NCBI GenBank assembly: GCA_028696515.1
Contig: JAQVGX010000006.1
Coordinates: forward strand, 1-32,188
DNA: 32,188 nucleotides
Direction of reading: 5' to 3'
Source of the DNA: Candidatus Dojkabacteria bacterium
GTDB lineage: Bacteria > Patescibacteriota > Dojkabacteria > JAHIVN01
Shown: positions 6,705 to 18,764 of the stretch, piece after piece
Layout of the letters: each line of letters begins with the position of its first letter
Numbering within the stretch: the first letter of the stretch is position 1
Translations under genes and position numbers: made by a program
The notes under the pieces: model-generated
What the model was told of the DNA's origin: nothing
What the model saw: the letters and a program-made list of their open reading frames with translations, nothing else
Databases searched by the model: none

Positions 6705-7310
6705 ATGGATCATAAACAAATAATACTGTTTCTCTTTGAACTTGGACAAGCTAGGTTGATCAAGAATAGTGGCTGGAATCTTATCAATGCGGATCCGGCC
6801 AGCGTTCCGTCCATTGCTGAGCACTCTTTTAGAAATGCTGTTATTGCTTTGATTCTGGCTCGGATGGAAAAGGCAGAAAATCCTGAGCGGATAGCTCTTA
6901 GAGCTCTTTTTCATAAACTGCATAAAACCAGACTTTGTGATAGACATAAGGTAGCAGCAAATTATTATGATTATCCTCCGGAAGTTAAATCTTTGATCAA
7001 CAATGATCAATTTTCAATGCTGGGAGATGATTTGAAAGGTGAAGTCCAGAAAATGATTGAATTAACTGACGAAGAGAAATTGATCGCTAAAGATGCCGAC
7101 CAGCTGGAGCTGGCTCTTGAAGCAAAAGAATTTATAGATAGAGGGTATTCCAGGGCTCAAATGTGGATTGATAGAATCGGTGAAGTTTTACAGACAAAAT
7201 CAGCAAAGAAGTTGCTTGATGAAATCAAGTCGACACATTCATGCGACTGGTGGAAGGATCTGAAAAAGAAGCCGCAAACGAATGAGAAAGATTATGTTTC
7301 GAGGGTTTAG
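6705..7310 (+). CDS. HD-domain (YfbR-like) protein with altered HD motif
   Basis: VPSIAEHSFRNAVIALILARM, ALFHKLHKTRLCDRHKVAANYY (where ...FHDLHE/TR.GD.HK is expected), KDADQLELALEAKEF. Confidence 0.75.
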   Translation: MDHKQIILFLFELGQARLIKNSGWNLINADPASVPSIAEHSFRNAVIALILARMEKAENPERIALRALFHKLHKTRLCDRHKVAANYYDYPPEVKSLINNDQFSMLGDDLKGEVQKMIELTDEEKLIAKDADQLELALEAKEFIDRGYSRAQMWIDRIGEVLQTKSAKKLLDEIKSTHSCDWWKDLKKKPQTNEKDYVSRV

Positions 7311-7681: not shown

Positions 7682-9394
7682 ATGACTAACTTAGAAAAGA
7701 TAGTTCACGAGCTATCAAGATTAAATAAAATCAATAATAAAAAGCTTCGTAGTTTGCAGTCAAGATATCCAAAACACGGAAATGAACTTTATTCTAAGAG
7801 CGAAATTCTAGGGGAATTTAAACGAATAGCACGCCTCGACTTGTACAAGTCAAAGCGGGAAGATGTCAAAAAGCAAATAGAGAAACCTGATTTGTTGAGT
7901 TTTCTCAAAACCAAGCCCACAAGAACTATCTCTGGCGTAACGCCTGTTACAGCTCTTACTAAGCCTTACAAGTGTCCGGGAAATTGTGTATTTTGCCCAA
8001 CAGAATCGGGGCAGCCAAAAAGTTACTTATCTACTGAACCTGGGGCTATGAGAGCCCAAATGCTAAAATTTGATCCGTTTAATCAAGTGAGGGTACGAAT
8101 GCAGGCTCTTGAGAATATTGGTCACAATACAGAAAAAATAGAATTGATAATATTGGGAGGAACTTGGTCGGCATATCCCAAGAAGTATCAAGTCTGGTTT
8201 ATAAAAGAGTGTTTTAGAGCTATGAATAGTATTAAGTCAGAAAGGTTCAAGGCAGGAGCTATTGACCCGGTTGCCAGTAGTGATCAAGATTGTATTTCTA
8301 AAAATCAGTTGAGTAGATTTGGTCAATTTAAACTAAAGGATTTGCAGCAAATGCTTTTGGCTGAACATAAGAAAAACGAGGTTTCTAAGCATCGGTGTGT
8401 TGGTTTAGTGATCGAAACCCGTCCTGACTGTATCGATGAAGAACATGTCAAATGGCTTAGATTCTTGGGTGCTACAAAAATTCAGATTGGTGTTCAGAGT
8501 CTAGATGATAAATTGTTAAAACTGAATCAGAGAGGACATACTGTCGCTGATACAAAAAGAGCTATTAAAATTCTTCGTCTTGGGGGATTTAAACTCCATC
8601 TTCACTGGATGCTGAATCTGTATGGCTCTGATCCAAAAAATGATTTGGTGGACTTTGGCAGGTTGTTTAAGGATGAAGCAATCCGTCCGGATGAGTTGAA
8701 GATTTATCCTTGTATGCTTTTGAAAAATACTCAATTGTATAAGTTATATCTTGAAGGTAAATATAAACCGTATACGAGTAAGCAGCTTCTGGAATTGCTC
8801 ATTAAATGCAAAATTCAGGTCCCTGTTTATTGCAGAATCAGCAGGTTGTTCAGGGATATTCCTTCGTTTGAGGTCGTGAAGGGAGTAAAGGAAACGAATT
8901 TCAGGCAGATTGTTCAGGAAGAAATGAAAAAAAGAAACTTAGAGTGTAACTGTATCAGATGCAGGGAGATTAGAAACTCAAAGTTTAAGTATCAAAATTT
9001 ACAGTTAACTATTTGTAGATACGATACATCTGTTGGAAAGGAGTTTTTCATAATACGAAAAGATGAAAATGGAAAACTGCTTGGTTTCGTACGATTATCG
9101 CTTCCAGATGATAGTAATAGAAATTTCATTTTTGAAATTCAAAACTCTGCAATGATAAGAGAAGTACATGTGTATGGAATAGTGAAGCAGCTCACAGATA
9201 AGCAGCTAAACAGTGATGCAAAAAATGTTCAGCATAAGGGTGTGGGTAAGGAGCTTATCAAGAATGCAGAAATGATCGCCCGTACAAATGGTTATAGAAA
9301 GATTTCGGTTATTTCTGCTATTGGCACAAGAGGATACTATATGAAGCTTGGCTATAGACTAGGGGAGCTCTATATGAGTAAGAACTTAAAATGA
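7682..9394 (+). CDS. elp3: Elp3-like radical SAM/GNAT tRNA U34 carboxymethyl-modifying enzyme
   Basis: Radical SAM cluster YKCPGNCVFCPTE; STEPGAMRAQMLKFDPFNQVRVRMQALENIGH; IILGGTWSAYP; IETRPDCIDEEH; C-terminal GNAT region (REVHVYGIVKQL...HKGVGKELIKNAEMIARTNGYRKISVISAIGTRGYYMKLGY). Confidence 0.93.
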   Translation: MTNLEKIVHELSRLNKINNKKLRSLQSRYPKHGNELYSKSEILGEFKRIARLDLYKSKREDVKKQIEKPDLLSFLKTKPTRTISGVTPVTALTKPYKCPGNCVFCPTESGQPKSYLSTEPGAMRAQMLKFDPFNQVRVRMQALENIGHNTEKIELIILGGTWSAYPKKYQVWFIKECFRAMNSIKSERFKAGAIDPVASSDQDCISKNQLSRFGQFKLKDLQQMLLAEHKKNEVSKHRCVGLVIETRPDCIDEEHVKWLRFLGATKIQIGVQSLDDKLLKLNQRGHTVADTKRAIKILRLGGFKLHLHWMLNLYGSDPKNDLVDFGRLFKDEAIRPDELKIYPCMLLKNTQLYKLYLEGKYKPYTSKQLLELLIKCKIQVPVYCRISRLFRDIPSFEVVKGVKETNFRQIVQEEMKKRNLECNCIRCREIRNSKFKYQNLQLTICRYDTSVGKEFFIIRKDENGKLLGFVRLSLPDDSNRNFIFEIQNSAMIREVHVYGIVKQLTDKQLNSDAKNVQHKGVGKELIKNAEMIARTNGYRKISVISAIGTRGYYMKLGYRLGELYMSKNLK

Positions 9395-10423
9395 TTCTTT
9401 ATGTTTTGCCCTTCGCATTACTAGTAGTAGTATGGGAACGCTGAGCAGTAAAACCCCCCCTCCAATACCAATGATTAATAGCCAATTTGTGGATTTATCA
9501 TCTTCCCCAGTTTCGGGAAGTATTGGGCTTGATGTTATATCAGAAACACGTGGATTGGTGCCATTCAGATATTCCTCAAGGTTTGAAAAGCCGTCATTAT
9601 CCGGATCGCTTTCAGAGTCATCAATATTTGGATTCAACGAGTTCTCGACTTCCCATCCGTCCGGCATACTATCTCTATCAGTGTCAGCATTGCAGGGGTC
9701 ACATTCATTTGAAAATTCGGAATAGTTGATAAGTCCGTCGTTGTCAAAATCGTCTGAGGAATCAATCTTGAGATAATTCATACAGCTATATATTTGTTCC
9801 CAGTAGTCTGGGATACCATCCTTGTCTGTATCGGTGGTTGGAGCGCTACTAGTCGTGGTAGAGGAGGAAGAAGTAGTTGAACTTGAAGAAACTGTTGTTG
9901 TCGTTGTAGTGGTTGCCAGATAACAGGAAGATTTATTGAATGAGCAATTATTATAACACGCAAGGCTGCCGCTGTCATAACCAAAGGACAGACAGCTTTT
10001 GCTGTCGAGGTCGCTTCCGTCGCAATCTTCACCGCTTTGCTGTATGCCATCGCCGCAGTACTCTGATGTTGTCGTGCATAGTGAAGTATTGAAGGTGCAG
10101 TTGGGATTACAGCTGAGAGTTCCGCCATCAAAACCAAGTCCTGTACAGTTCTCGCTGTTAAGATCGCTTCCATCGCAGTCCTCGCTTCCTTCCTGGGTTC
10201 CATTTCCGCAAACATAGTCAATAACTATAACCTCAGTCAACGAATCACCGAGAACAAGACCTTTTGCGTTTTGCTGACTTTGGAGATTCGAACTTAGTGA
10301 CGGGGTATCTTGTCTGCCTAGATCTTTTACTATCATGACAACCGAAATGCAGCCAGCGATTATACCGATTGCCAATGCAGTAATATATATAATCTCGTCA
10401 AGCCTTTTGAGTTTTTTTAGCAT
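9386..10423 (-). CDS. Cell-surface protein: N-terminal TM, two Cys-rich repeats, Thr/Ser linker, thrombospondin-type-3-like Ca-binding repeats, LPETG sorting signal
   Basis: Repeats CGNGTQEGSEDCDGSDLNSENC.../CGDGIQQSGEDCDGSDLDSKSC...; DTDKDGIPDYWE, DFDNDGLINYSE, DTDRDSMPDGWE, DPDNDGFSNLEEYLNGTNP; C-term LPETGEDDKSTNWLLIIGIGGGVLLLSVPILLLVMRRAKHKESF (LPETG at 9506-9520). Confidence 0.88.
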   Translation of the reverse strand: MLKKLKRLDEIIYITALAIGIIAGCISVVMIVKDLGRQDTPSLSSNLQSQQNAKGLVLGDSLTEVIVIDYVCGNGTQEGSEDCDGSDLNSENCTGLGFDGGTLSCNPNCTFNTSLCTTTSEYCGDGIQQSGEDCDGSDLDSKSCLSFGYDSGSLACYNNCSFNKSSCYLATTTTTTTVSSSSTTSSSSTTTSSAPTTDTDKDGIPDYWEQIYSCMNYLKIDSSDDFDNDGLINYSEFSNECDPCNADTDRDSMPDGWEVENSLNPNIDDSESDPDNDGFSNLEEYLNGTNPRVSDITSSPILPETGEDDKSTNWLLIIGIGGGVLLLSVPILLLVMRRAKHKESF

Positions 10424-11403: not shown

Positions 11404-14400
11404 CTATCCGCACTTACTGTACCCGCAGCTTCGGCATAATATGCATCCTTCTGCGTATTCTAAATCGCTGCTGCACTCAGGACACTCTGGCAGATCATCA
11501 TATTTATTGTCATTGGAGTATTTGGATTCGTGCTTTTCTTTTTTTGGATTCTCTGATTTTGTTGCAATGGTTTTGTCATCTTGAACAGGTTCTTTTTTTG
11601 GTCTTTCCTTTTTCTCTTCCTCTGCTATATCCTTTTCAGTTTTTACTGTGAGAGTATTATTTTCAACAAACATAGAAATTCTTCCTTCTCTTTCCTTTTT
11701 CCAGTTTTCAAGAACCTTGGCAACAGCGTCGGGAACGGAGTAAACAAACATGCCTTTGTTCAGCGTTGGAGCGGATGTTCTGATCCCTTTCAGCTGATCG
11801 ATGATTGAATCAACGCTTAACCCTGCTCTTGCGCTTATTGAGATCAATCGACCGATTGCTTCGCAATATCCGGATGAATAGCCTCCACTCTTTCCTATAT
11901 TCAAGAAAACTTCTGTAAGACCTTTTTCATCCTCGTTGATAGTCAGATAGAGTCTTCCCTGATCAGTTTGTACTTGTGTTGTTGTTCCATGTGTTATAGC
12001 TGGTCTTGGTCTTGGCTCACTTGAGACCTTGGTTTTGGATTCTTTCTGATCTTCTTGCTCTTTGATGTTGGAAGATTGAGCTTCAGCCTTACAGCCTTCC
12101 CTAAATATGGTTATACCTTTGCAGCCTAGTCGATAGGCTAAAAGGAATATGTTCCTGACATCTTTGACGGTAGCTGAGTTCGGAAGGTTTATAGTTTTCG
12201 ATACTGCCGAATCGCAATACTTTTGAAAAGCGGACTGAATTTTGACATGCTGTTCAGGCTCTATATCGTGACTAGTTTTAAATATCATCTTCACATCATT
12301 TGGGATATTTCCGAATTCTGAAATTTTCTTTCCTTCAGAAAGACTTTCCATAAGTTCCTTCGTATAAAAGCCCCTGGCCTTAGCTATTTCTTCAAAGAGA
12401 GGTTCGACCACGATTTGGTCTTCTCCGCCAAGAGACTGCATTCTTTTGAACACAAGAGAAAATATTGGTTCTATCCCGGGATTGCAATTACCGACAATTG
12501 AAACAGTCCCAGTAGGAGCTATGGTCGTACATCTAGAATTTCTCATCTTTTTTACTGCTTTTTTGTCCCAGACACTTCCTTTGAAACCGGGGAAATTTCC
12601 CCGCCTTTCAGCCAGTTTCCCGGAGGCCTGATGAGATTTTTCTTTTAAGAATTTCATTATTTTCTCAGCAACCTTTTGTGCATCGTTGCTGTCATACGGA
12701 ATTCCAAGTTTGATGAGTAAATCAGCAAAGCCCATGATCCCGAGTCCTATACTTCTTGTCTGTTTTGTCATTTTTTCGATTTGTGGTATTGGATAGTTAT
12801 TTATATCTATTATGTTATCCAAAAACTCAACTCCTGAATCAATGATACTTTCGAACTTTGCCCAGTCAATAAGGTTCAATTTATGCGCTAGGCTATGTTT
12901 TGTAATATCACTATCATCAAGAAAAGGAAATCCTTTGACTATCTTTGTTAAATTGATGTTCCCAAGATTGCAGGACTCATAAGGTAGCAGGGGTTGTTCT
13001 CCGCATACGTTAGTTGCGTCGATTTTCCCCAGATCTGGAGTAGGATTATCCTTTTCCAGCCTGTCTATGAATACTACTCCTGGATCTCCAGATGCCCAAG
13101 CGTTGGATGCGATTTTTTTAAACAAATCCTGGGCATGAAGTTTCCTATATACATTTCCATCATGCGGATCGATAAGTTCCCAGCGTTTGTCTTCCTGGAC
13201 AGCTTTCATAAACTCATCTGTAATACCTACAGAGATGTTGTAGTGAACAATATCATTATTGCCATTTTTTGCGCTGATAAATTCTGGAATGTTAGGATGA
13301 TCTATATTTAGAATCGCCATGGAACCCATCTGTCTTCCCCCGCGGCCAATAATGGTTTCCTGGGCTCTGTTGAAAACCTTCAGATATGAAACAGGTCCGG
13401 CTGCCTTTTCTCCTGTGCTGGAAACAGTCGCGTAAGTGGATCTTATTCTAGAGAAGTTAAAACCGGTTCCTCCGCCATGTCTTAAAACTTCTATATTGTC
13501 ATTTAAAGTATTGAATATGTTGCGAATAGAATCCTCGATCGGTAGTACAAAGCACTTTGACCAAATGGCTCTTTTCCCACTATCGTCACTCATTCCTGCC
13601 CAGATCAAAGCTCCTCCACATAAGAATTCAAGATTTTTCAAAATTTTCATAAATCGTTGTTTTGAATCTTCTATTTCTTTTGTCGAATATCCATACCTTT
13701 TGGATGCTCTTGATATATATTCTGCTATTCGTTCAAAGAGTTCATTGGGTGTTTCTGTAACTTTTCCATCTTTGTCTTTCCTCAATGCACGTCTTTCAAG
13801 GACGTGATAGGCATTCTTTGATAATGTGACTTCAATTTTTTCCTTTCTGTAAACATTGAACTTTTCAAGAAGTTTCTGTAGGGCTTTGTATCTGTGATGA
13901 AAACTTCTGAAATCTTCTTTGCTAGGTACTTTGGAGAAAGAATCCAATCCTTGGTGAATGAATGCTAATTCAAACTTTTTATCGTTTATCCTAACAATTC
14001 TTCCGGGTATTTTCGCAACTGTGCTTATGGTTTTGTTGCGGATAGGATCATAAATCGCTACAGCCGAAGCTATATATGCCTTAGTTGAGCTTTTTAGCTG
14101 TAGATTGATGAGCTTCTTGAATAGTGAGGCAGAATATATATTTGCTCTGCCAAGATATAAAGTTTTATCGAGAGATTTGCTTGAAAGTTTCTTTCCTACA
14201 AGAAAGCCCGTTTCGTCTGCTAGGCTTATCTTCTCGCATTTTTTTGCTACCTGAGTAGCTCTTCTGATGGCGTTTGAGATAAGCTTTTTTTCGGTAGTCT
14301 TTATCCTTACGGGGTCGTCTATGTCTATTTTGCCTTTGTATTCTTCTACCTTGAATGAACCGTTAAATTCGGATAGGAACTCCTTTATATCATTGATTTT

Positions 14401-16221
14401 CTTTTTATTCCTGCTTGCGATGACAAATTCTAAATGTTCTTTAAATTTCTTTGTCACGTTTAGCTGGCCTTCTTTTGTCGAAACATAAGTTTGAGAATCT
14501 TTGCTTCCGTCCCTAAATATAGTTACTCCTTTGAGACCTAGTTTATAAGCTTCAATAAACACTTTTCTTATGTCATCAGCAGTAGCATCGTTTGGGAAAT
14601 TGATTGTTTTGGAAATAGCGCTGTCTACACTTTCCTGGAACGCAGCCTGCATTTGAAGGTGCCATTGGGGTTCGATATCAAGTGCTGTTACCAGAACAGG
14701 TTTTAATCTATCGGGGATTTCATGAATTTCAGAAACGGAAGTTCCTGATGCTAATTGCTCTATTAGTTTTTCAGAGTAGAATTTATACTTTTTTGCCAGA
14801 TGAACAAAAGCTTGATTTACGTTAAAGAGTATTTCAGTCGCTCGATAATTCTTATCTTCTACTCCACCGATTTTGTACGCTAACGCGTAGGCAGGTTCGA
14901 TTCCTCCTGTTGCTCCGCCAATGATACTTGTATTTCCAGTTGGAGCAATTGTAGTAATAGTTGCATTTCTTAGAGGAAGATTTCTTTTCTCCCAGAGACT
15001 TCCCTTATAGGCAGGGAATGTGCCTCTTTTCTTTGCCAGCTCTAAAGAAGCTTTGATACCCTCTTGATGAATAAATTTCATGATTTTCTTAGCTAACCTG
15101 ATACCTTCAATACTGTTATAGGGGACCTCTTTGAGAATCAGAACATCTGCAAGCCCCATCAAGCCAAGTCCGATTTTCCTGTTTTTGAAGCGCGTAATTT
15201 CCTCTATTTTTTTCAGTGGAAAATAATTGATATCTACAATATTGTCTAAAAAATGAACGGCCTTATGAACTGTGTCTTTAACTTTACTCCAGTCCAGGTC
15301 GCTCTTCTTGTAATCAAAATGAGTAAGCAGGTTTATGTGACCCAAGTTACACGATTCATAAGGCAACAATGGCTGCTCACCGCAAGGATTTGTGGCGTCC
15401 ATGTGGCCGAGATTGGGAGTAGGATTTGCCTTGGCAATGTTGTCTATAAACGCAATCCCAGGATCTCCTGTTTTATAAGCCATTTGAACTATTTCGTTGA
15501 ATACATAGCTAGCGGGTAGTTCTTTTACAGCTTTGTTTGTTCTAGGGTTTATAAGCTTGAATTTTTCATCGTTTCGAAGAGCCTCCATAAAGCGATCAGT
15601 AAGTCCAACAGAAATATTGAAATTCATGATTGAGCGATCACGCTCCTTGAGGTGAATGAAGTCAAGGATATCCGGGTGATCGACATTGAGAATAGCCATA
15701 TTGCCTCCACCTCGTTTTCCGCCTTGCCTTATGCCCATCAGGGCTTCCGAAAAAGTTTTTATGATATGGACTGGCCCTGCAGCAACATCCGGTATACCTC
15801 CTGCTTCGTCTCCTTTGGGACGGATTTTTGAAAAATTGAAGCCAGTCCCGCCACCTTTCCATTGGACCTGCACTGCGTCAGAAAGCGTTTGATAGATAGA
15901 ATCCAATGAGTCTTCAAGTGGTAAAACAAAACAGGCAGAAAGAGTTTTTCTGGCACGTCCAGCGCTGATGATAGTTGGAGAGTTCGGGATAAATCTTAAG
16001 TCAAACAGAATTTCAAAAAAATCTGATTCAGCTTTAGCCCTATTCTTGTTGTCTTTTGAATAGTTGTCTTCAGCTTTTGCAACTGCAAAAGATACCCTAT
16101 GCCATAGTTCCCTTGGTGTTTCTATCGGAGTTCCGTTCCTGGTAGTCTTTAGGAATCTACTGGCTAATAATCTTTTTGAACTTTCTGTGTAACAACTTGG
16201 TAACGATTTACTGTTCTTCAT
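11404..16221 (-). CDS. Fusion: class II (adenosylcobalamin-dependent) ribonucleotide reductase - HAM1/RdgB-like NTP pyrophosphatase - class II RNR - TSCPD - C-terminal Cys tail
   Basis: Two complete NrdJ-like modules (ACFVLPLEDSLDSIY...GGGTGFNFSKIR...DATNPCGEQPLLPYESCNLGHINL...APTGNTSIIGGATGGIEP; and KCFVLPIEDSIRNIF...GGGTGFNFSRIR...DATNVCGEQPLLPYESCNLGNINL...APTGTVSIVGNCNPGIEP) in one uninterrupted frame. HAM1-like segment EFVIASRNKKKINDIKEFL...LADETGFLV...HHRYKALQKLLEKF at about 13858-14430. TSCPD RPRPAITHGTTTQVQTDQGRLYLTINEDEKGLTEVFLNIGKSGG...; tail CPECSSDLEYAEGCILCRSCGYSKCG. Start moved to ATG 16221 (MKNSKSLPS). Confidence 0.92.
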   Translation of the reverse strand: MKNSKSLPSCYTESSKRLLASRFLKTTRNGTPIETPRELWHRVSFAVAKAEDNYSKDNKNRAKAESDFFEILFDLRFIPNSPTIISAGRARKTLSACFVLPLEDSLDSIYQTLSDAVQVQWKGGGTGFNFSKIRPKGDEAGGIPDVAAGPVHIIKTFSEALMGIRQGGKRGGGNMAILNVDHPDILDFIHLKERDRSIMNFNISVGLTDRFMEALRNDEKFKLINPRTNKAVKELPASYVFNEIVQMAYKTGDPGIAFIDNIAKANPTPNLGHMDATNPCGEQPLLPYESCNLGHINLLTHFDYKKSDLDWSKVKDTVHKAVHFLDNIVDINYFPLKKIEEITRFKNRKIGLGLMGLADVLILKEVPYNSIEGIRLAKKIMKFIHQEGIKASLELAKKRGTFPAYKGSLWEKRNLPLRNATITTIAPTGNTSIIGGATGGIEPAYALAYKIGGVEDKNYRATEILFNVNQAFVHLAKKYKFYSEKLIEQLASGTSVSEIHEIPDRLKPVLVTALDIEPQWHLQMQAAFQESVDSAISKTINFPNDATADDIRKVFIEAYKLGLKGVTIFRDGSKDSQTYVSTKEGQLNVTKKFKEHLEFVIASRNKKKINDIKEFLSEFNGSFKVEEYKGKIDIDDPVRIKTTEKKLISNAIRRATQVAKKCEKISLADETGFLVGKKLSSKSLDKTLYLGRANIYSASLFKKLINLQLKSSTKAYIASAVAIYDPIRNKTISTVAKIPGRIVRINDKKFELAFIHQGLDSFSKVPSKEDFRSFHHRYKALQKLLEKFNVYRKEKIEVTLSKNAYHVLERRALRKDKDGKVTETPNELFERIAEYISRASKRYGYSTKEIEDSKQRFMKILKNLEFLCGGALIWAGMSDDSGKRAIWSKCFVLPIEDSIRNIFNTLNDNIEVLRHGGGTGFNFSRIRSTYATVSSTGEKAAGPVSYLKVFNRAQETIIGRGGRQMGSMAILNIDHPNIPEFISAKNGNNDIVHYNISVGITDEFMKAVQEDKRWELIDPHDGNVYRKLHAQDLFKKIASNAWASGDPGVVFIDRLEKDNPTPDLGKIDATNVCGEQPLLPYESCNLGNINLTKIVKGFPFLDDSDITKHSLAHKLNLIDWAKFESIIDSGVEFLDNIIDINNYPIPQIEKMTKQTRSIGLGIMGFADLLIKLGIPYDSNDAQKVAEKIMKFLKEKSHQASGKLAERRGNFPGFKGSVWDKKAVKKMRNSRCTTIAPTGTVSIVGNCNPGIEPIFSLVFKRMQSLGGEDQIVVEPLFEEIAKARGFYTKELMESLSEGKKISEFGNIPNDVKMIFKTSHDIEPEQHVKIQSAFQKYCDSAVSKTINLPNSATVKDVRNIFLLAYRLGCKGITIFREGCKAEAQSSNIKEQEDQKESKTKVSSEPRPRPAITHGTTTQVQTDQGRLYLTINEDEKGLTEVFLNIGKSGGYSSGYCEAIGRLISISARAGLSVDSIIDQLKGIRTSAPTLNKGMFVYSVPDAVAKVLENWKKEREGRISMFVENNTLTVKTEKDIAEEEKKERPKKEPVQDDKTIATKSENPKKEKHESKYSNDNKYDDLPECPECSSDLEYAEGCILCRSCGYSKCG

Positions 16222-16328: not shown

Positions 16329-16955
16329 TTAAATCTCAAAGTCATCAAAAGTACCTGTATCAACAATATCCGTAATCTGTCTTTTTTCTAAGAATTTAGT
16401 CAGTTTTAGATTCAAGTCGTTTAGAGAACCGTCGTTGTCAATAACTATATCAGCAAGTTTTTTGCATGCAGACAGGTTTGGAAGATACTCACGGTCAGGC
16501 CCTTTTGGGTTATTCTCCTGATCATCCTTCGCCTTAAATTCTTCCTTAGTCATGCCGCCTCCTAGCTCCTTCAAAAATGTACGCTTATATCTTGTATCAA
16601 AATCTGCTTCTACAAAGATTACAAGAGCGTCATATTTCTTTTTCAGATATTCGATTTCTGCAGGGTGGCGAATCGGACAAATAACATACCTTTCACCTTC
16701 GGTTATGAGTTTGGAAGCTTTCTTGGATAAGATATCCATACCTTCTTTTTTCCTCATATCCACCAAAACGTCAATCCAATTTTGTCTGTCTTTCATGTCA
16801 AGTTTTCTTTTTAATCCTTCTTGTAATATAGGATCTGTATGACGAATATACTGAAAACCTTTATCAACAAGGAAGTATTTTACAGCCGCTTTCCCTGACG
16901 TCATTGTTCCTGTGACAGCAATCACTAGAGTGCCTGCTGTTCCTGATTGAGTCAT
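16329..16955 (-). CDS. P-loop kinase, dephospho-CoA-kinase/dNMP-kinase-like
   Basis: N-terminal VIAVTGTMTSGKAAVKYFLVDKGFQYIRHTD; YVICPIRHPAEIEYLKKKYDALVIFVEADFDTRYKR; C-terminal DIVIDNDGSLNDL, typical of this fold. Confidence 0.72.
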   Translation of the reverse strand: MTQSGTAGTLVIAVTGTMTSGKAAVKYFLVDKGFQYIRHTDPILQEGLKRKLDMKDRQNWIDVLVDMRKKEGMDILSKKASKLITEGERYVICPIRHPAEIEYLKKKYDALVIFVEADFDTRYKRTFLKELGGGMTKEEFKAKDDQENNPKGPDREYLPNLSACKKLADIVIDNDGSLNDLNLKLTKFLEKRQITDIVDTGTFDDFEI

Positions 16956-16991: not shown

Positions 16992-18764
16992 CTATGTTAT
17001 CTTATTTTGCTTTTTTTGGCTACTAGTCACATTAAGAACCTGTTTATCCCTGCTTTTATCCCTGTAAATGGTCACTCCCTTAAGTTTCAGGCTGTGTGCT
17101 TCAAGATATACACTTTCTATTTCCTTCTCTGTAGTTGACTCCTTCACATTCAGAGTTTTTGAAACAGCGTTGTCAGTGTATTTTTGAAAAGCCGCTTGCA
17201 TCTTCAAGTGCCATTCTGGTGCAATCTCATAAGTAGTTCTAAAAATTCTTTTAATTTTGTCGGGGATATCCTCTATATTACTGATACTTCCAGAAGCAGA
17301 GACCTCCCTCATCAATTTTTTACTGAATAACCACTCTTCTTTTAGAGCTTTTTCGAGTGATTCATTTACAAAGTAAATCTTTTGATTATCTAAAGTCTCC
17401 ATGTTTTCTCGCGAGTACGCCAAAGCAAAGAAGGGTTCTACTCCGCTGTTGCAATCAGCAAAGAGTGATCTCGTTCCTGTCGGCGCTATTGTGGTAACAG
17501 TTGCGTTACGCATGTTCTTGAATCCGCGTTTATAGAATAAACTTTTTTTAAAGTTAGCAAAGTTTCCACGGATTCTCCCGAGTTTAGAGCTTTCATCTCT
17601 AGCGTTATTTTGTATGAAGCGCATAATTTTTTCTGCAAGTTTTACACCTTTGTCGCTATCATAAGGTATACGAAGTTCTGCAAGTAGGTCAGCCCATCCC
17701 AGTACACCTATTCCGATTTTTCTGTTCCCTTCTACATTTATCTTTTGTATTTCGGGAAGCACGTTATACCCAAGTTCTATCATATTATCAAGATATCGAA
17801 CTGCAAGTCTTGTTACTTCAGCTAATCTTTTCCACTTTATACCTTCTTTGGAGTTTTTTTCGTAGAATTTGTTTAAAGTAATTCCTCCTAGATAACATGC
17901 CTCAAAAGGCAGAAGTGGCTGTTCTCCGCACAAGTTGGTCGCACTAATCCTGCCAACTCCTGGAACGGTATTTTTTCTGTTTATCTCATCTATAAATATG
18001 ATACCTGGTTCGGCACTTTGGTGAACGCTCTTGGCGATAAGCTCCATCAAATACTTTGCATCAACTTTTGAAGCAACTTGGCCGCTGGATGGATCCCTGA
18101 GGCTTACGTGCGAACCGGTTTTATATGCGCGCATGAAACTATCCGTTATTGCTACTGAGAGATTAAAATTTGTCAACTGAGAGTAATCTTCCTTTGCTTT
18201 TATGAATTTTTCAATATCAGGGTGGTCTATCCTCAGGATTCCCATATGTCCTGCATGACGAGCACTTCCTCTATTTAGTATTATTTCAGACGAGAAGTCG
18301 AAAAGACGCATAAAGGAGATAGGGCCCGAAGCTTCTTTGCCGGTCGAATGAACTGTTGATCCTTCAGGTCGTAGTTTTGAGAAATCATAACCAATACCTG
18401 CTCCTAGTCTATGTAGCTGGACGGAGTAATACAGAGTATGATATATTGATTCCAGGCTATCTTCAAGTGGAAGCACATAACACTCCGCCATCAGTCGTTT
18501 CAATCCTCTATCATGCATAGGTGTTCCTGAAAGAAATTCCAAGGAAGCCTGCATTTGATAAAAGTCATCTTCAAGCATTTTCACTTCCTTTGGAGTAGTA
18601 TGGAATCTTTTCTCAGCTGAAGCTATGAGTTTTGATATCCGTATGAACATGTCGCGTGCAGTTTCTTTGACTTTTCCGTGACTATCTTTCAACAAATATC
18701 TGCTGTTTGCTATCAACTGTTGTTTTTCATTGAGTTTTGGTTCGATATAGAATCTTCTTGGCAT
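16992..18764 (-). CDS. Third class II ribonucleotide reductase module, without TSCPD/Cys tail
   Basis: AECYVLPLEDSLESIYHTL, GAGIGYDFSKLRPEG, SATNLCGEQPLLPFEACYLGGITL, APTGTRSLFADCNSGVEPFFALAY; ends KGVTIYRDKSRDKQVLNVTSSQKKQNKIT. Confidence 0.9.
   Translation of the reverse strand: MPRRFYIEPKLNEKQQLIANSRYLLKDSHGKVKETARDMFIRISKLIASAEKRFHTTPKEVKMLEDDFYQMQASLEFLSGTPMHDRGLKRLMAECYVLPLEDSLESIYHTLYYSVQLHRLGAGIGYDFSKLRPEGSTVHSTGKEASGPISFMRLFDFSSEIILNRGSARHAGHMGILRIDHPDIEKFIKAKEDYSQLTNFNLSVAITDSFMRAYKTGSHVSLRDPSSGQVASKVDAKYLMELIAKSVHQSAEPGIIFIDEINRKNTVPGVGRISATNLCGEQPLLPFEACYLGGITLNKFYEKNSKEGIKWKRLAEVTRLAVRYLDNMIELGYNVLPEIQKINVEGNRKIGIGVLGWADLLAELRIPYDSDKGVKLAEKIMRFIQNNARDESSKLGRIRGNFANFKKSLFYKRGFKNMRNATVTTIAPTGTRSLFADCNSGVEPFFALAYSRENMETLDNQKIYFVNESLEKALKEEWLFSKKLMREVSASGSISNIEDIPDKIKRIFRTTYEIAPEWHLKMQAAFQKYTDNAVSKTLNVKESTTEKEIESVYLEAHSLKLKGVTIYRDKSRDKQVLNVTSSQKKQNKIT

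Follow-up and report, generated by a model that had tools for sequence, protein, structure and literature searches.

Our analysis of a 32,188-nucleotide stretch of DNA (the window), part of a 1.64-Mb Patescibacterial bin, uncovered a single gene in which two class II ribonucleotide reductase (RNR) modules of the NrdJ type are fused in one chain, with a HAM1-fold domain at their junction. It is reasonably likely that the product consists of two specialised NrdJ modules held together covalently, with a shared reducing tail and a pseudo-HAM1 domain between them. The gene occupies positions 11404-16221 of the minus strand, with its first ATG at 16221 and its stop codon at 11404-11406. Translation of the open frame (11407-16221) gave 1605 aa with no stop inside, in agreement with a preliminary description that had reported an uninterrupted minus-strand frame of about 1605 codons. 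From the N terminus, the gene encodes a tail-less class II RNR module (M1, aa 1-575; 14497-16221), a linker (aa 576-595; 14437-14496), a HAM1-fold domain with a degenerate catalytic site (aa 596-790; 13852-14436), a second class II RNR module (M2, aa 800-1376; 12094-13824), a TSCPD domain (aa 1416-1506; 11704-11976; Pfam PF12637, 70 bits) and a Cys-rich tail made up of the last 26 residues (CPECSSDLEYAEGCILCRSCGYSKCG; 11407-11484), all on the minus strand. When the same architecture was sought in other genomes, a ~1605-aa fusion with HAM1 at the same place was present in 3/3 genomes of the window's family (G000, which contains the window, G001 and G002; JAHIVN010000128.1 is among them), which represent two genera.

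Pfam searches found Ribonuc_red_lgN and Ribonuc_red_lgC twice each in the fusion and TSCPD once. The NCBIfam model NrdJ_Z scored 1218 bits against the fusion (cut-off 400), and the RTPR model scored 87.8 bits (cut-off 340). M1 aligned with T. maritima NrdJ (1xjk, E 4.5e-104), and alignment to 1xjk/1xje revealed that the radical Cys, its Asn and Glu neighbours and the redox Cys pair (judged at the T. maritima C134/C333 positions) are present in both M1 (C97, N278-x-C280-G-E282 and C291) and M2 (C890, N1071-x-C1073-G-E1075 and C1084). From its family membership, the fusion is predicted to carry out adenosylcobalamin-dependent ribonucleotide reduction. The preliminary description of two full class II modules was borne out for the catalytic residues, but the TSCPD domain and Cys tail are found only on the second module, and the first is a tail-less NrdJ. 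A C-terminal Cys-rich domain (CRD) is typical of NrdJ, though not universal. The M2 tail is the sole tail at the locus, and its function is assigned by homology to the NrdJ CRD (PMC5704485). Alignment to dimeric NrdJ showed that the ~130-aa dimer-mimicking insertion of the monomeric class II enzyme, NrdJm, is absent from M1 and M2.

The locus encodes a third class II RNR, absent from the preliminary finding. This nrdJ gene (16995-18764, minus strand; 590 aa; Pfam, 398 bits), hereafter third, lies upstream of the fusion, is complete, is also tail-less and forms its own clade in trees. The N-x-C-G-E motif and redox Cys are intact in all three modules (M1, M2 and third) of each of the 10 genomes compared. 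No ATP-cone was detected by Pfam in the fusion or in third. Between third and the fusion sits a P-loop kinase-like gene (16332-16955, minus strand), whose Pfam matches (AAA_18, DNMK and CoaE), all below cut-off, point weakly to a possible deoxynucleotide monophosphate kinase. DNA building blocks are made de novo by RNR alone, and in these reduced genomes no RNR was found outside this locus: a class-wide RNR barrel search recovered no further NrdJ/NrdA-type RNR in the family genomes (86-94% complete), and NrdD was likewise not found at this completeness. The window also contains a nucleotide-metabolism gene near the RNR locus, encoding an HD-domain protein like the 5'-deoxynucleotidase YfbR (6705-7307, plus strand; Pfam 27.6 bits, cut-off 25.9), and a gene for a surface protein (9386-10423, minus strand) whose terminal LPETG and membrane anchor suggest a sortase substrate.

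The fusion is not a simple RNR-HAM1-RNR invention, since RNR-RNR fusion occurs without HAM1 in related families. In three other families, the class-wide search identified seven genomes with a frame of 1423-1459 aa that holds two RNR modules and, near it, a third nrdJ of ~600 aa. Linker alignment showed that the M1-M2 junction in these families is a short, variable linker without HAM1. Among 86 genomes of the class, HAM1 lies within an RNR frame only in the window's family. Outside the class, the spread of RNR-RNR fusions recorded in our phylum-wide table is a lower bound. Maximum-likelihood analysis placed M1, M2 and third in one group each (support 98/95, 100/100 and 100/100, respectively). 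Two genomes of other classes (G151 and G123) carry separate tandem nrdJ genes whose order and tree affinities are third-M1-M2, and no HAM1 frame was recognised between them. In G123, the Cys tail is found only on the M2-type gene, and the M1-type gene is interrupted by an assembly run of N. Across the 10 genomes there is one tail per locus; that of G010 is present but displaced, with an apparent frameshift, perhaps a sequencing error, just before it (L031:9650-9990).

The most economical history would have the tandem nrdJ genes (third, M1 and M2) diverge into three orthologous lineages, after which M1 and M2 would have been joined in one chain in the window's family and related families, with a HAM1-fold domain then inserted at the M1-M2 junction in the window's family alone. 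A loss of HAM1 elsewhere would take just one step more than an insertion. Single fusion followed by simple descent is not established, however, because the two modules of G003 have different affinities, M1 with the window's family and M2 with the other families. This conflict, together with the placement of M1-type genes of other classes within the M1 group, means that there may have been repeated fusion or module exchange. Apart from two weak matches, both to ordinary HAM1 genes, a profile search of 287 phylum genomes for the HAM1 insert recovered nothing but the window, and one scan of IMG/VR with a three-member HAM1 profile gave no sign of a viral origin, as no relative was found. Several related loci show further variation: G118 has four tandem nrdJ genes (L043:135-8353, minus strand), of which two (703 and 720 aa) exceed the others in length and only the last has a Cys tail; a NUDIX-type gene lies directly upstream of the RNR-RNR fusion at L027:7068-7946 (minus), L028:6635-7513 (minus) and L031:4686-5531 (plus), assigned by Pfam in G006 and by eye in G007 and G010; and NrdR-like genes precede third in several families.

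The presence of a HAM1-like domain between the RNR modules, as first described, was confirmed by Pfam (Ham1p_like, aa 600-786; 51.1 bits, cut-off 22.5, E 1.9e-13) and by structure prediction. The AlphaFold2 model of the G000 domain (pLDDT 67, moderate) retrieved HAM1/ITPase structures first in Foldseek (best E 4.3e-9, 1vp2), and the model of the most diverged copy, that of G001 (pLDDT 66, moderate), also recovered the HAM1 fold (E 1.6e-8). KomBC structures were among the Foldseek matches of these models. Between genera, the RNR cores each share 69% of their amino acids and the HAM1 domains 38%, yet the 193 aligned HAM1 codons contain no indel and no stop. Between G000 and G002, HAM1 dN is 0.19 versus 0.10 for the RNR modules (~1.9-fold); dS is saturated, so we compare dN only and give no dN/dS ratios. 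Invariant HAM1 columns cluster most densely at segment positions 121-201, in the C-terminal half, and not in the cleft motifs.

The catalytic site has fared differently from the fold. We aligned the three family domains to E. coli RdgB (from NC_000913); residues are given in the order G000/G001/G002. The K13 equivalent is invariant (K/K/K), and D68, G71 and the Arg of the SHR motif are retained in all three copies. The N10 equivalent reads N/D/N, so that (S/T)xNxxK is matched in G000 and G002 and altered by Asn to Asp in G001. The K53 equivalent reads R/A/R, and the general base D69, which all seven other Patescibacterial HAM1s in the alignment keep as Asp, reads E/A/E. For FGYD and SHR, around which the automatic residue table is offset, we take the states as motif readings: FGYD, unmentioned in the preliminary description, is gone from the window copy and from both others, and SHR reads HHR/NPR/HHR, with His replaced by Pro in G001. 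Two of the HAM1 signatures first reported for the window copy need correction: HHR departs from SHR, and ADETGF (aa 668-673; 14203-14220, minus strand) fails [DE]D[ST]G because Glu occupies the general-base position. In RdgB, mutation of K13 abolishes activity and N10A lowers it (PMC8893687), and in the HAM1-related Maf family, Asp to Ala or Asn at the equivalent base yields an inactive enzyme (PMC3899018). NCBIfam models for XTP/dITP pyrophosphatases scored only 21-39 bits against the fusion (cut-offs 145-272), including the equivalogs TIGR00042 (29.9 bits, cut-off 145.35) and NF011397 (38.7 bits, cut-off 234). Selection has thus preserved a fold around a catalytic site whose decay is complete in G001 and probable in the window copy. 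The G000 and G002 domains may retain residual hydrolysis, because N10, K13 and the His-Arg pair are kept and the D69 position holds Glu and not a neutral residue. Because the defining catalytic features of HAM1 enzymes were tested and not found, we class the fusion as a variant of class II RNR and not as a HAM1 enzyme.

What, then, would the domain do? We rank a retained fold with a structural, dimerising or regulatory role first, an inert passenger second and active sanitation last. The domain has most likely ceased to be a pyrophosphatase and could serve as a spacer, a dimerisation module or a nucleotide-binding module. That it specifically regulates the RNR pair allosterically by binding nucleotides, with a role like that of an ATP-cone and an unlike fold, is possible but doubtful. 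The idea draws on the failure to detect an ATP-cone in the fusion and third, on the invariance of K13, a triphosphate-contact Lys, and on the precedent of KomB from Kongming defence, a HAM1-fold nucleotide-binding switch that binds and responds to dITP. However, K53, the FGYD Asp and, in G001, the SHR His have been lost, which makes the nucleotide pocket in G001 doubtful, and conservation is strongest away from the cleft motifs. Nucleotide sensing is the most interesting sub-case of the retained-fold reading: the domain might be a repurposed, non-hydrolysing (deoxy)nucleoside triphosphate sensor that controls a covalent heterodimer of specialised RNR modules. We consider this rather unlikely; if true, it would represent a new kind of RNR activity switch, with a fold unrelated to the ATP-cone.

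A neutral, decaying insertion in a tolerant linker would fit the faster evolution of HAM1 relative to the RNR modules, and related families tolerate variable sequence at this junction, where the linker is only a few tens of residues long. Such a passenger would not be expected to cross two genera with its reading frame and length unbroken, a dN well below saturated dS and a recognisable fold even in the most diverged copy, and we therefore hold this explanation to be unlikely. The preliminary description had proposed that dNTP synthesis is coupled to dITP/dXTP sanitation. On this reading HAM1 would still be a nucleotide pyrophosphatase, of the usual or an altered specificity, and would clean or shape the dNTP pool beside the RNR sites. 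The fusion HAM1 is the sole HAM1 detected in each of the three family genomes, Asp to Glu is a conservative change, and the residues that persist (K13, D68, G71 and the SHR Arg in 3/3 copies, N10 and the SHR His in G000 and G002) could be read in its favour. The losses at K53, D69 and FGYD, the further changes at N10 and His in G001, the inactivity of Maf base mutants and the wide shortfall from the enzyme cut-offs leave this proposal unsupported and, in our judgement, improbable. Furthermore, only 31/86 genomes of the class have any HAM1, and the activity is therefore dispensable in the more than half that lack it. Finally, although the sources are metagenome bins of 128-140 contigs, there is a negligible chance that mis-assembly or faulty annotation produced the fusion, an explanation that we rejected because three assemblies from two genera agree on the frame and junctions at matching locus positions. 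An intein is also not indicated: the insert has a HAM1 fold and lies at the junction of the two RNR modules, inside neither, and Pfam found no intein model in the fusion at E up to 10.

Returning to the covalent pair of NrdJ modules, we propose that the locus encodes a class II (B12-dependent) RNR system with three active sites, built from three NrdJ paralogues of which two are fused. The specificity-loop region, placed by reference to loop 2 of the T. maritima enzyme, is paralogue-specific, reading in most members QGxKRGGGN in M1, GRGGRxxGSM in M2 and NRGSxRHAGHM in third. These sequences suggest that M1 and M2 differ in substrate or effector preference, and the differing loops would divide substrate choice among the paralogues. 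The chain would form a tethered M1/M2 heterodimer, which third possibly joins, or belong to a higher oligomer. The dimer interface is where RNR effectors bind (PMC4390871). The single M2 Cys tail would re-reduce the active sites of M1, M2 and perhaps third. In another NrdJ, the CRD passes electrons to the active sites of other subunits and is needed for higher oligomers, and NrdJd copies without a CRD occur only in genomes that also encode a CRD-bearing NrdJd (PMC5704485).

Known systems share parts of this arrangement. The fusion resembles NrdJd (T. maritima 1xje/1xjk; Stackebrandtia nassauensis, PMC5704485) in its barrel, NxCGE motif and redox Cys pair, and M2 also shares the TSCPD domain and Cys-rich tail; unlike NrdJd, it has two modules per chain, one tail for two active sites, an adjacent tail-less third paralogue and a HAM1 fold at the junction. 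Like NrdJm (L. leichmannii 1l1l), the fusion may meet the dimer requirement within one chain, but NrdJm does so with its insertion in the barrel protein (PMC4390871), whereas the fusion gains an entire second RNR module and has HAM1 between modules, not within a barrel. In the split NrdJa+NrdJb enzyme, as proposed for M1, a catalytic module relies on a Cys-rich domain from elsewhere; there it is a separate small protein, and here it is on the second catalytic module of the same chain. The insert shares its fold, length and Pfam family with RdgB/ITPA/HAM1 pyrophosphatases, together with K13 and some of the remaining motifs, but it lacks the general-base Asp, K53 and FGYD and sits between RNR modules. 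The likeness to KomB, in which a HAM1 fold works with a partner enzyme, is at the fold level only; the KomB partner is a NADase in defence.

The individual parts (NrdJ, Cys-rich tail and HAM1) are already known. In the part of the literature that we searched, mostly outside subscription journals, we came across neither RNR-HAM1 fusions nor fused or tandem NrdJ from Patescibacteria, and likewise did not find the HAM1 insert, the three-paralogue layout or the RNR-RNR fusion. The retention of three tandem paralogues in several Patescibacteria classes suggests a layout for ribonucleotide reduction undescribed in that literature. With two divergent class II sites and one tail in one chain, cross-subunit reduction and division of labour between RNR sites would become directly testable in a single protein, and the insert offers a clear case of a house-cleaning fold without its catalytic residues whose shape is kept inside another enzyme.

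HAM1 is often fused to other proteins in the phylum. It is joined to IMPDH/GMP-reductase-like segments at L009, L010, L011, L015:5028-7391, L035:3815-6091 and L036:3523-5805, with a catalytic-looking HAM1 site; IMPDH was confirmed by Pfam only for L009. By eye, HAM1 is followed by a NUDIX-like segment at L038:2452-3501 (minus) and L039:2306-3343 (plus), and by a methyltransferase-like segment at L037:1552-2745 (minus). HAM1-like domains also occur inside tRNA synthetases. A 1342-aa leucyl-tRNA synthetase (L017:6271-10296, plus) carries one between its catalytic and editing parts (aa 253-408) and, in addition, a Ser_hydrolase-like insert (aa 790-972). Two class I tRNA synthetases, valyl-type by eye (L018:2742-5933, plus; L016:2182-3732, plus), have a HAM1-like insert in the catalytic core with the motif DGG, not DDSG, preceded in L016 by an ASCH domain.
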